Assembly: GCA_017654735.1 (NCBI GenBank)
Contig: JADPYG010000091.1
Location: 248,001-312,000, forward strand
Direction of reading: 5' to 3'
DNA from: Vishniacozyma victoriae
Taxonomy: Eukaryota > Basidiomycota > Tremellomycetes > Tremellales > Bulleribasidiaceae
DNA length: 64,000 bases
In this document: positions 20,667 through 25,769 of the stretch, piece after piece
Numbering within the stretch: the stretch's first letter is position 1
How the letters are laid out: the number at the start of each line of letters is the position of its first letter
Notes under the pieces: generated by a model
What the model was told of the DNA's origin: nothing
Databases searched by the model: none
Seen by the model: the letters and a program-made list of their open reading frames with translations, nothing else
Translations under genes and position numbers: made by a program

Positions 20667-21264
20667 CCTGACTTGACCGTAGCATACCGCTACTACGGTA
20701 AGCTTGTTGGTGAGATATCTCAAGAATAAGACTGGCTATATGATTGACGGTTGACGAGTTGATCCACCTTAACCGGGTTACCGGCGATGACCGATCCTGA
20801 TTGAAACACTATAGTTTGCCCCATTGCTCATGCTACCCCACTCCTGGATCGAGACTCTTGGGCGTTACACAGCCCTGGTGTTCTTGACCATTCCGAGCCG
20901 CTAAACCCATGCAAGATACATAGTATGCTTGCAAGATGACGATCCAAAGCATTGGTTGAGATTATTCAACCTAAAGTACTTGCAATATCAGGCGCGTCAT
21001 CTTTACGAAGATCAACGGTTCAACTCTTGATGTTGCTATTCACCTTTTGTCACTCCTCCTCCCGAACCTGTCCTTCTCAACCAGTCCTTTCAAACGTATT
21101 ATTCTTTACCTGTCATTCCCGACGAGTCGTTCCCACCTTGTCATTCCCACCTGTCACTGTGAAACCGTCAATCCCAATCGGTCAACGCCTACTCAGCCCC
21201 CACCTCGCTGCCACGACCTATCATCCCCTGCCCGAGCTTCTCAGTATGAAGCCAACGATCCCCG
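20667..21264. other. Intergenic region upstream of the paralogue triplet
   Basis: No gene is recognised. A CTTGATGTTGCTATTCACC stretch at about 21026 resembles stretches found 69 bp before the starts of the two downstream paralogues. It is followed by imperfect CCTGTCATTCCC-type repeats (21060-21170). The latter half stays open in more than one frame, so a longer first exon for the next gene is possible. Confidence 0.4.
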
Positions 21265-22560
21265 ATGCCCGGTTTGGGCCGACACATCTGGTACATACCA
21301 GGATCACAGCATACCTCGCCATCTTCGGAGCAGACCGAGCTCCCGGCTATCGACAGCCCATTTCCAACGTCCTCGCCGGGTTCCCAGGTATCACTCGGGC
21401 GCACAAGCGGGCCAAGAGCGATCCAACTCGCCATCTACCACGCCTATCTTCATTTGGCCAGGACCTTTGATCCGACATTTCGGTCATACCTCCATAACGG
21501 GGAACCCTGGGCCGAGCTGGGCGAAGCGTTGGAAATACTGGTGAGACACGGACGTGAAGCCTTGGTGTTCAATGGATTGTTGGGTAAGTACACCCCATCT
21601 TGCAACCGTTGTTGGAGCTTATAATATAGATCCTCTTCTTTTGATATTGCGATATGAGGTTATCCCGACCGCGGAATCGAAACGGGATCGTGACGACTCA
21701 TCTGCTCGGGACGCTCGCGGAGTCGCAATCGTCTTGAACCAGTGGCGTGCTTTGTCTGATCATGTCGTTGTGCTAGGGGTATGTTGGCTCTGCAAGGGTC
21801 CGCTGATCGGTAGGAGGAAGATACAAAGACATTGTTCTCGACCGATACATGGATTCTATGGAGCTTCTTGTCGTACGCTCTAGAGCCGCGAGGGACCCTC
21901 TGTTTGGAGGAGATGCCTTGTGGATCAATGTCTACACCTGAAGAGCTGGACTTTCCGCTATACATCGAGCTGTTCAAGATCCCCGCTTTCTCGGTCTCGA
22001 AACTGGATCTAAGCGGAAACAGACTTGATCGTAAGTCAAACCTGAAAATCTAGCTGACTGAAGGTCTGCCCGTTCAATGGATCTCGGGCTTTCCTCGATT
22101 GAGGATCCTCAATATCACCGGTTGCGGCTTGTCGTGCTTGCCGATCTACTGGCTTCGAACCAAGTTTCGTGTAGATGGAAATGTCGCTTTTCGCAGAACC
22201 CCAATGGGCGGACATGTCATCGCTCACACGATCCCAATAACCGGTCGGTCTCGCCAAATCCCATCGTTAGTGGTGTACTGCTTGATGCATCTCCGCCGTT
22301 CGTCTAATTCCAAGTCGAATTTGTCGAAGATGACAACAAATTACCGCGCCCACCGCGCCGAAGAACTCATCCAACGTTCCTACATTTGCGAATTGTGTGA
22401 TACAGAGTGTGCCACACGGATACAGGATTGGATGGACAAAACCATGCTGTATGAAATCACCCATCATCAGGGAGGAGTCAGGTATCTCGCGCTGGATGGA
22501 CGGATATGTCGACCTTGTTTCGAGTTCTTGACGACTCCTCCGCCGGTAGAGCTAGTTTAG
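21265..22560 (+). CDS. Tandem paralogue 1: leucine-rich segment + CELC/CRPC putative zinc module
   Basis: Four exons (21265-21583, 21630-21778, 21814-22030, 22064-22560) give 393 residues with intron phases 1, 0, 1. The first 55 residues are low-complexity. A helical region follows (AIQLAIYHAYLHLARTF), then a leucine-rich part with KLDLSGNRLD and LRILNITGCGLSCLP, typical of LRR asparagine/leucine spacing. The C-terminal module reads SYICELC, then DWMDK, then GRICRPCFEFL, four cysteines spaced like a treble clef or zinc ribbon. The two following genes share exon structure and this module. I do not know the function. Fungal LRR proteins with a terminal CxxC...CxxC exist, so this is probably a diverged branch of that group. 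The start is uncertain: a stop in frame at 21247 makes 21265 the first usable ATG unless an upstream exon exists. Confidence 0.72.
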
Positions 22561-22788
22561 AATTCTGACCTTGACACCAGTACCTTAGACTGTTAGCTTA
22601 GATGTACTCTGATATTGTATATAACTTAGCATGTAGATGACCGCAGGTTGCGCTCATTATTCCCCGACCAACGAGTACCCGCACACTCGCCCGGTCTACC
22701 GGCCACAGTCCTTGCTGATCTTGACTTTGCTTTCCATCCGTCATTTGTGTCTTTTATCGATCCAGCCAGCAAAGCATGCTATGCGCCA

Positions 22789-24127
22789 ATGCAAGCTCCC
22801 AATCTCGGTCGTGGCGAGTCTACCGATCAGTCGGGCGACGCGACAAGACCAACCTCGCAAAGAACGTACATTTCTGAAAGTCGTTCAACTACAAGCCCGT
22901 TGTTTCGGTTCGTCGGTGACAACATAGAATCGAAAGTCTTTGCCGTTCAACAAGCCTTCATCTCGGCTTATCGACGCGTGACTACGATCGTGGAGCCGGA
23001 ACCCGAGATGAGGTCAATGGGATGGGTCGCGTTGAGCAGGACTGTCGAGATTCTAAGGAGGCATGCGAATTCCAGTAGAGTTCGAGAGGTTTTTGACATG
23101 GACGTTCTTCATGGTAAGTCTTGTTAGAGATCGCTGGCATTGTGCGAATGCTTCGCTAATAGTACAGGTACCTTGTTGCGTATTATGTACCGTGATATCA
23201 TCCCACTGGCGAGTTCGGAGGAATATTTGGAAGAGATTAGCACAGAGGATTTCCGAGCCATGCGTCCATTAATGACCGAGTGTGCTATCCTTGCATCCGC
23301 GGGCTTGACGAGGGTAAGACCCTATCCAATCCAGATCAGTTTAACCCTGTTGATCCGCAGACTGAAGGTTCGGCAATACTTCTCTCGACCTCGAAATGGG
23401 TCCTGTATCGGTGCTTGGAACAAGGCATTCAACGCAAAAATATCATCGATCTCTCGTACCTCGGTCTCACAACAGCAGCAGACCTGGATCAGGTTGCGCG
23501 AGTCATGAAGATGTTCAAGCCTCCGTTCCACGGAGTAAGATCGATAGACCTGTCCAACAATAATCTCACCTGTATGATACTCCGTCTCAGGCGGTTCCAG
23601 CAGCTGACGCTATTGTATAGGTATTTCCTCTTTCTTCCTGTCTGTGTTCCCCCAACTGTTTGACCTGAACGTTACTGGTAATCCGATTACGACGTTTCCC
23701 ATCTCTATCATCAAGTCGCCCTCGATCGTTATTACATGGACAGACAAAGTCGGCAAATCCATCCCAACAGTGATAAGAGACCGCCTTCAATCTTCCAACG
23801 ACCTTCTCCCTCGGCCTCGCCAAACACTGTTTCAATGCTGTTTCAAGGTCTTACATCGATATTCCCCCAAGATCGATCTCTTGAAGTTAAACATGCCGCC
23901 CAAAAGTCCGAGATTTGATCGCTCAGTTGTACAGGTGTGAGTTGTGTGGTGAGGCTCCGGGGACTAAGGGTGAGAACTGGATGAGGGGGGTGGTAGTGTG
24001 GCATGGACAGCCTGCCATCCAGTTTCTTGGTCATCTGTGCGTTCCGTGTAGGACCTTCTTGGCGACAGGGAAGAGTTTGAGGAGAAGCGACCATCTCTCA
24101 ATATACAAGTACAAGTGTCCGCCGTGA
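22789..24127 (+). pseudogene. Tandem paralogue 2: frameshifted copy
   Basis: Exons 22789-23113, 23168-23313, 23361-23571 and 23621 onward match paralogues 1 and 3 in order and phase (1, 0, 1). The leucine-rich part is clear (SIDLSNNNLT, DLNVTGNPITTFP). In the last exon the upstream frame runs to a stop at 23940 without the cysteine module. The module itself (LIAQLYRCELCGE ... HLCVPCRTFL) lies in the next frame, open from 23891 to 24127. The switch must fall in 23891-23911, which contains CCCAAAAG, and no GT-AG intron of suitable phase fits. One base too many explains it. It is therefore a recent pseudogene or a sequence error. The copy is otherwise undamaged, which argues that the break is young. 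Confidence 0.7.
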
Positions 24128-24403
24128 ATTGACTACTTATGATGCAATTACACTATATATGTACCCGATTAGCTCAAACACTTCTCGTTCTCTGGCATGA
24201 TGATAGGAAACTCTCGAGGGGCGTTTATGGCTCAAGGCTCAACGCGCCTCTCCACTAAAGAGATCTATTGGCATGACGTGCAATCTCGGCAATCGTCGCG
24301 GAAACGCACCGGCGAAAGCCGATCCAATTCAACACTTGACATCACTTTCCACCTCTCGCATCTTTGTCCCACCGCGATAGCATGCGGCCATTGGGTACCA
24401 CGA

Positions 24404-25769
24404 ATGTTTCACGGAAGTGGACGCTACAGAGCCCCTGTCGATTCAGATGATTCATACACCTCATCCTCGGGAGAGGAATCGCTATCCGACAGCCCCAAAC
24501 GAGAGTCGCCGGATCGATACGTGGACGATACTACAGAATCTCATAAAGTCAGATCAGTTCGAAGTGCTCTCGATACCGCTTATCGATCTGTGGCTGTGAT
24601 CGAAGCACCACGGAAAGATATCAGTCAGGAAGGTCAGACGCCATGGAGGGATCTAGGGCAGGCGTTAAAGACGATAACGGATAATGGAAGTGATGCTAGA
24701 GTGCGAGCTGCAATGGATGTAGATACGCTATCGCGTGAGTAGACTGGTGCATGTCCACGCTGACGAACCAGTCCCCCTGAAGTTGGTCATCCAACACGAT
24801 ATCGCTCCGCTGGGAACCAACAAGCAGTACACTAGGTCGTTATCAAAAGAGGAAGCCCGGGCGACCTACTTGGTGAGGAGACGTTGGCCGGACCTATGCC
24901 CGCATACGAAAGAAATTGATGTTCAGGTATGACCGCTTTAATTCTCCCGTGAATTGAGTGCCGCTAATGACAGCAACAATCACCCTCAACCCCCAAATGG
25001 ATGCTCCTCCAGCTGTTCCGATTCAGCCTGACCTCAAAAGACGTCCTTTCCTTCGCACTTCTATGCAAGGAAACCATGAGGGAAGCCAAAACGCTGAATC
25101 TTGCTTTATCTTGTAGACTGCTCAAGATACCGGGTGAATCAGTCTTACGCTTGGATATCACTGGAAATCGTCCAACTTCATGTGAGTCCACGGCTCATCC
25201 TGCAATATAAAGTCACGGCTGACGTCTCAGCTCACATCATCGAGATTCTCTCCACTTTCCCCCTCCTGAAAGAGCTCAACTTGTCAGAAACCTTCATTGA
25301 CTGGCTTCCTCTCTTGATCCTCAAACATCCACTCGATCGCTTGATAGGAAGCAATTATGATTGGCGATTCCCCGAATCTTTTCCTCGAATCGGAGATATA
25401 CCCAAACTCGCCGAGCACCCTCGACCACCACGACATCGATCGTTGATCCAATACACTTTATTGGCTCTGAAACGATCATCAACCCTCGACTCGAGGCTTC
25501 TCGACTTGGGGCTATTACCGCGTATTGCGGAGCTTATCACCGAATCGTACGAGTGCGAGCTATGTGGCGAGATGTGTGCGATCCGCAGTGATGACTGGAT
25601 GCAGAAACAGAGACTCCAATGGGAATCACCTGGGTCTGGCTGGTGGAGAGTGGAGGGAAGGCTGTGTCGTTCCTGTTTCGTGTTTTTGACCGACGGGACG
25701 CCTAGCGTGGAACTCTCGGACTCCAGTACATCAGACATGTCGATCAGCGATTCTGATTCTGATATGTGA
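24404..25769 (+). CDS. Tandem paralogue 3: leucine-rich segment + CELC/CRSC putative zinc module
   Basis: Exons 24404-24734, 24772-24926, 24974-25181 and 25231-25769 give 410 residues with the same phases (1, 0, 1) as its neighbours. The N terminus is Ser/Asp-rich. A helix with SVRSALDTAYRSVAVIE follows, then an F-box-like or LRR-flanking stretch (WMLLQLFRFSLTSKDVLSFA), then VLRLDITGNRP and LLKELNLSETFIDWLP. The C-terminal module is SYECELCGE, DDWMQ, GRLCRSCFVFL, followed by an acidic Ser/Asp tail. An earlier in-frame ATG at 24197 would add 69 residues. I prefer 24404 because the copy 2 start also lies exactly 69 bp after a CTTGAC...TTTCCA stretch. Both readings keep the same frame. The function is unknown. 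Confidence 0.72.

Follow-up and report, generated by a model that had tools for sequence, protein, structure and literature searches.

Three adjacent genes, here called g1, g2 and g3, lie between positions 21265 and 25769 on the forward strand of a 64-kb window (the whole stretch of DNA that was analysed, C14:248001-312000 of the source genome assembly, which comprises 11.58 Mb in 17 contigs). Sequence comparisons indicate that the three genes are homologous over their whole length. The reading we favor, to which we give roughly an even chance, is that they are old tandem paralogs from a single small fungal protein family of narrow spread, whose products are intracellular adaptors combining leucine-rich repeats (LRRs) with a zinc module. 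Each protein would begin with a Ser-rich region, probably disordered, continue through a helical part and a short two-unit LRR, and end in a module with four cysteines (Table 1).

Three diverged paralogs in tandem

Evidence for common descent comes from exons 1-3, which do not contain the module. These exons are 26% identical between paralogs, and pairwise blastp comparisons, run within a database of just these three sequences, return E values between 2e-14 and 1.5e-18. Since none of 500 shuffles per pair attains the real score in any of the three pairs (z = 27-28), the homology of g1-g3 stands above chance. In exon 4, g1 and g3 are 36% identical over 166 columns, and the module of g2 shares 33% identity with both of the others over 60 or 61 columns. 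Identities of about 26% in exons 1-3 and 33-36% in exon 4, set beside the roughly 66-95% that separates each paralog from its own metagenome relatives, support the old duplication and strong divergence suggested in a preliminary description of this DNA.

The genes share their architecture as well. Each is predicted to contain four exons separated by GT...AG introns of 33-54 nucleotides in phases 1, 0 and 1, and the intergenic gaps are 228 bases between g1 and g2 and 276 bases between g2 and g3. The exon calls are predictions from splice consensus, common phases and homology. The extent of the triplet, its single strand, the exon number and the intron phases all agree with the preliminary description. 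That description had also assigned every copy about 390-410 residues and the same four-exon structure, and here agreement is partial: g1 (393 residues) and g3 (410 residues) fit, but g2 has 396 residues only if translated across a one-base frame break, with its exon 4 split over two frames near 23905. For g3, in-frame ATGs at 24197, 24200 and 24227, within 24173-24404, leave room for an N terminus 59-69 residues longer.

Serine or threonine occupies 14 of the first 50 residues in each of the three proteins, in line with the Ser-rich N terminus described before. A consensus scan finds two LRR-like units per protein. Pfam is more reserved about the leucine-rich units: LRR_8 scores 21 bits in g1 and 20.4 bits in g2, both under the 27-bit cut-off, and no Pfam LRR model is listed for g3 in a scan at E up to 10. 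The leucine-rich units proposed earlier are thus present as consensus matches but fall short of a Pfam assignment.

The four-cysteine module

The common C-terminal module proposed in the preliminary description is found in all three genes, in g2 in the frame that follows the break, and takes the form Y-x-CELC-x-W[MI]-x-G-x-[LI]-C-x-x-C-x-x-FL. A looser pattern, C-x2-C...C-x2-C-x2-[FLIVM]L, matches three sites in the six frames of the window, and these are g1, g2 and g3. Genome-wide, a DNA pattern encoding Y-x-C-E-L-C plus G has three matches, all at the triplet (the backward-read control gives 2). In an alignment of 22 members (A4), all four module cysteines are invariant in the 21 covering rows, as are, in g3 exon-4 numbering, Y106, E109, W122, G142, F151 and L152 next to the cysteines C108, C111, C145 and C148. 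L110 is leucine in 18 of these rows and isoleucine in 3, and the next commonest cysteine column beyond the four is filled in 16 of 21. The rows of A4 were collected with a profile already containing the module residues and are mostly close relatives of g3, so this invariance is weaker evidence than it seems.

A treble-clef zinc domain consists of a knuckle with CxxC, a beta-hairpin and a helix carrying a second CxxC in its first turn, which together supply four zinc ligands. An AlphaFold model of g3 25419-25715 (mean predicted local distance difference test score, pLDDT, 58.8) has its elements in treble-clef order, with a CxxC, a beta-hairpin and a helix that begins at the second CxxC. The same order recurs in FYVE, RBR and other treble-clef zinc domains, which appear as weak structural rows. 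At this model quality, the secondary structure as predicted would allow the cysteines to cluster. Neither VIA-align 2 nor Foldseek returned a standout match to the module model, all structural rows being very weak, and an earlier model built from the exon-4 profile A3 was too poor in quality for use. We consider the module probably zinc-binding; the four cysteines would then hold one zinc ion and form a treble-clef domain.

The preliminary description called the family undescribed, and our searches bear this out. No Pfam model exceeds its cut-off in g1, g2 or g3, where LRR models, CorA and Desulfoferrod_N appear below threshold, and the best Pfam E value over the 22 members of A4 is 0.019. Searches of PDB sequences gave no match with g3, 13 rows with A3 (all at E 0.77 or worse) and 43 rows with A4, of which the best (E 0.00056 to 0.02) are mostly LRR chains; rows overlapping the module reach E 0.17 or worse (ZPR1). 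Among the papers listed in the literature searches, judged from titles and the openings of abstracts, none seemed to deal with this family. Within Pfam, the PDB and that literature the family is apparently undescribed.

Table 1. Positions of the three genes and their parts in the window
Feature	Position	Strand	Structure	Basis
Gene g1	21265..22560	+	exons 21265-21583, 21630-21778, 21814-22030, 22064-22560; 393 aa	splice consensus, phases 1,0,1, homology to g2/g3, relative P0010
g1, two LRR-like units	21994..22164	+	interrupted by intron 3	consensus scan; approximate coordinates, hand-derived
g1 module	22387..22530	+	CELC...CRPCFEFL	pattern match
Gene g2	22789..24127	+	exons 22789-23113, 23168-23313, 23361-23571, 23621-24127; one-base frame break near 23905	
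g2, two LRR-like units	23535..23718	+	interrupted by intron 3	consensus scan; approximate coordinates, hand-derived
g2 module	23936..24061	+	CELC...CVPCRTFL	pattern match, frame after break
Gene g3	24404..25769	+	exons 24404-24734, 24772-24926, 24974-25181, 25231-25769; 410 aa	splice consensus, phases 1,0,1, 14 nearest metagenome open reading frames
g3, two LRR-like units	25142..25334	+	interrupted by intron 3	consensus scan; approximate coordinates, hand-derived
g3 module	25554..25688	+	CELC...CRSCFVFL	pattern match; AlphaFold-modeled

Relatives and the frame break in g2

The genome holds at least three copies of the gene: exon-4 protein queries with g3, g1 and the metagenome relative P0012 return this locus alone, and a g3 exon-1 query finds g3 itself, a weak match to exon 1 of g2 (E 0.35) and nothing else. 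Outside the genome, a 5.8-billion protein set was searched with A3, a profile built from exon 4 of g3 and g1 and the module of g2; of 855 candidates, 19 open reading frames (ORFs) passed at E <= 1. We grouped these by their best blastp match to g1, g2 or g3. Fourteen are nearest g3, at 67-94% identity (P0002-P0009, P0011, P0014, P0015, P0017, P0018 and P0020; P0002 is 94% identical over 158 residues), four are nearest g2, at 66-95% (P0012, P0013, P0016 and P0019), and one, P0010, is nearest g1, at 87% over 153 residues of exon 4; by the same measure the 19 include no fourth paralog type. Because each ORF lies nearest to one paralog, the triplication would predate the divergence between this genome and the relatives, and the assignments indicate that each paralog type occurs outside this genome, in environmental DNA. 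A full-length g3 query of the same protein set gave nothing at E <= 1 among 5567 candidates, and none of the 47 and 35 pattern matches in viral_contigs and genome_contigs, respectively, was confirmed by tblastn. P0001, an LRR protein reached at E 0.25 with the three-protein profile A2, was taken as a chance match. The narrow spread of the matches fits the lineage-specific distribution proposed earlier, but it derives from one profile search and the relatives are present as short ORFs.

The one-base frame change in g2 falls in a short homopolymer stretch of exon 4 near 23905 (23891-23920), 5' of the CELC module, which for this reason is complete only across the break. Such a lesion invites the explanation that the locus is decaying, with g2 a pseudogene and the family on its way out. 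We regard this as improbable: P0012 is open across the corresponding position, g1 and g3 are open throughout, and g2 and P0012 are 91% identical over 87 residues before the break and 95% over 75 residues after it, the closeness to be expected if the break is either an artifact of assembly or very recent. When P0012 is used to search the genome, its match to g2 is split between two frames. Either origin, assembly artifact or fresh mutation, is possible. An intron of about 49 nucleotides in its place, considered by eye, was rejected because it would delete the conserved Y-x before CELC and because P0012 reads through uninterrupted.

Known leucine-rich repeat proteins and the proposed role of the family

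A scan of the genome for further LRR genes gave 22 matches, which lie at 7 places. We inspected ORFs at 8 of these 22 loci, so that each of the 7 places was touched; no CELC module was seen in them, and the DNA pattern search finds it at the triplet alone. We take the inspected ORFs to be adenylate cyclase, Ccr4, a Sog2-like protein and others, by resemblance. A second explanation is that g1-g3 are diverged paralogs of a broader fungal type of LRR protein whose C terminus carries cysteines. The conserved relative would be L037:1413-2153 (minus strand; C14 from about 504.4 kb), an LRR gene whose C terminus ends in C-x3-C-x2-FL. Its order of elements is like that of g1-g3, with an LRR, a spacer, Y..C, a strand-looking stretch and then GCSPGCLDFLEHG versus LCRSCFVFLTDG, which hhalign aligns together, and such an LRR family is presumably present in many fungi. 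However, hhalign assigns the match a probability of 1% (P 0.055; P 0.045 in a second comparison), its score of 17.3 is attained by 3 of 200 shuffled versions of the C-terminal L037 sequence (best 24.0) with the reversed sequence at 15.3, and the intron in the L037 LRR differs in phase, by eye. As the profile match is non-significant, a result that comes from one L037 sequence, we keep the family apart from the L037 group and consider a common origin with it doubtful, though worth keeping in mind. At one of the other LRR loci (L016/L022, C13 at about 369 kb) a 414-residue ORF joins leucine-rich repeats to a stretch that we read as alpha/beta-hydrolase-like from its HGGG and GGSAGG motifs.

Tandem, strongly diverged paralogs bearing LRRs also suggest a repertoire of fast-evolving recognition proteins, for self/non-self discrimination or the sensing of microbes, as the preliminary description supposed, and the LRR of cytoplasmic fungal adenylate cyclase is reported to sense bacterial products, according to the part of PMC2939053 consulted. 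Several observations run counter to this. Just three copies were found (at least three, as above), no signal peptide or membrane helix is evident from hydropathy, and Pfam lists no NACHT or NB-ARC model. Moreover, nine longer relatives of g3 (P0002-P0009 and P0011), compared with g3 exon 4, are 70-92% identical in the LRR part, 48-100% in the linker, 79-97% in the helices and 69-92% in the module, so that no acceleration specific to the LRR is seen in this comparison, which is one of protein-level identity, covers one of the two LRR units and is not a ratio of nonsynonymous to synonymous rates (dN/dS). Change is thus not fastest in the LRR part, which counts mildly against a recognition repertoire, and we think such a role unlikely. 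Fungal NLR receptors resemble g1-g3 in having repeats and no membrane segment, in the part of PMC4986451 consulted, but no NACHT or NB-ARC model is listed for g1-g3.

In the favored reading, the proteins would be intracellular adaptors, their short LRR and zinc module forming a non-enzymatic docking surface. By hydropathy, the sole measure used, g1-g3 lack a signal peptide or membrane segment (maxima of -0.25, -0.39 and -0.91 at the N terminus and 1.5, 1.2 and 0.98 overall), and the Pfam scan at E up to 10 yields no model for a NACHT, NB-ARC or F-box domain and none for a plausible enzyme; on these two results together we base the proposal of an intracellular docking role. Fungi have been reported to possess fewer LRR genes than other sampled eukaryotes, and those named include adenylate cyclase, a PP1 regulatory subunit, a septation scaffold and a glucose-repressible ADH effector (the consulted part of PMC2939053). 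Like these intracellular proteins, g1-g3 have an LRR without receptor features; unlike them, they have just two LRR-like units together with a four-cysteine module, and Pfam lists no cyclase, nuclease or kinase model. By analogy with proteins such as the septation scaffold, each paralog may serve as the adaptor for a different partner. FcLRR1 of Fusarium circinatum, an F-box/LRR protein (PMC13117327, seen in part), is likewise a fungal LRR protein but differs from g1-g3, for which no F-box model is listed. By eye, g3 exon 3 retains a weak likeness to an F-box, but Pfam gives no such model at E up to 10.

Around the triplet, eight nearby ORFs scanned with Pfam-type models match an SNF2 helicase, a fungalysin propeptide, HLH, MKT1_N, a protein kinase and WD40-type models, the last below their cut-offs, and one of the eight is without any model match. 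These neighbors accord with a fungal source. A tandem repeat of period 14 (21108-21156; 3.6 copies; unit ACCTGTCATTCCC) lies about 110 bases 5' of g1.

We tentatively propose, as a suggestion that could well prove wrong, that g1-g3 represent an unnamed class of fungal intracellular adaptors joining an LRR to a zinc treble clef, the three paralogs being retained as a set whose members came to have different partners. Should the host be a tremellomycete, the class would belong to a lineage in which no NLR-related genes were found, according to the part of PMC4986451 consulted. With the triplet comes a protein family that lacks annotation but bears a clear cysteine signature and has relatives at hand. 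This signature would enable gene callers and family libraries to recover the family, and the four cysteines offer a simple mutational test.
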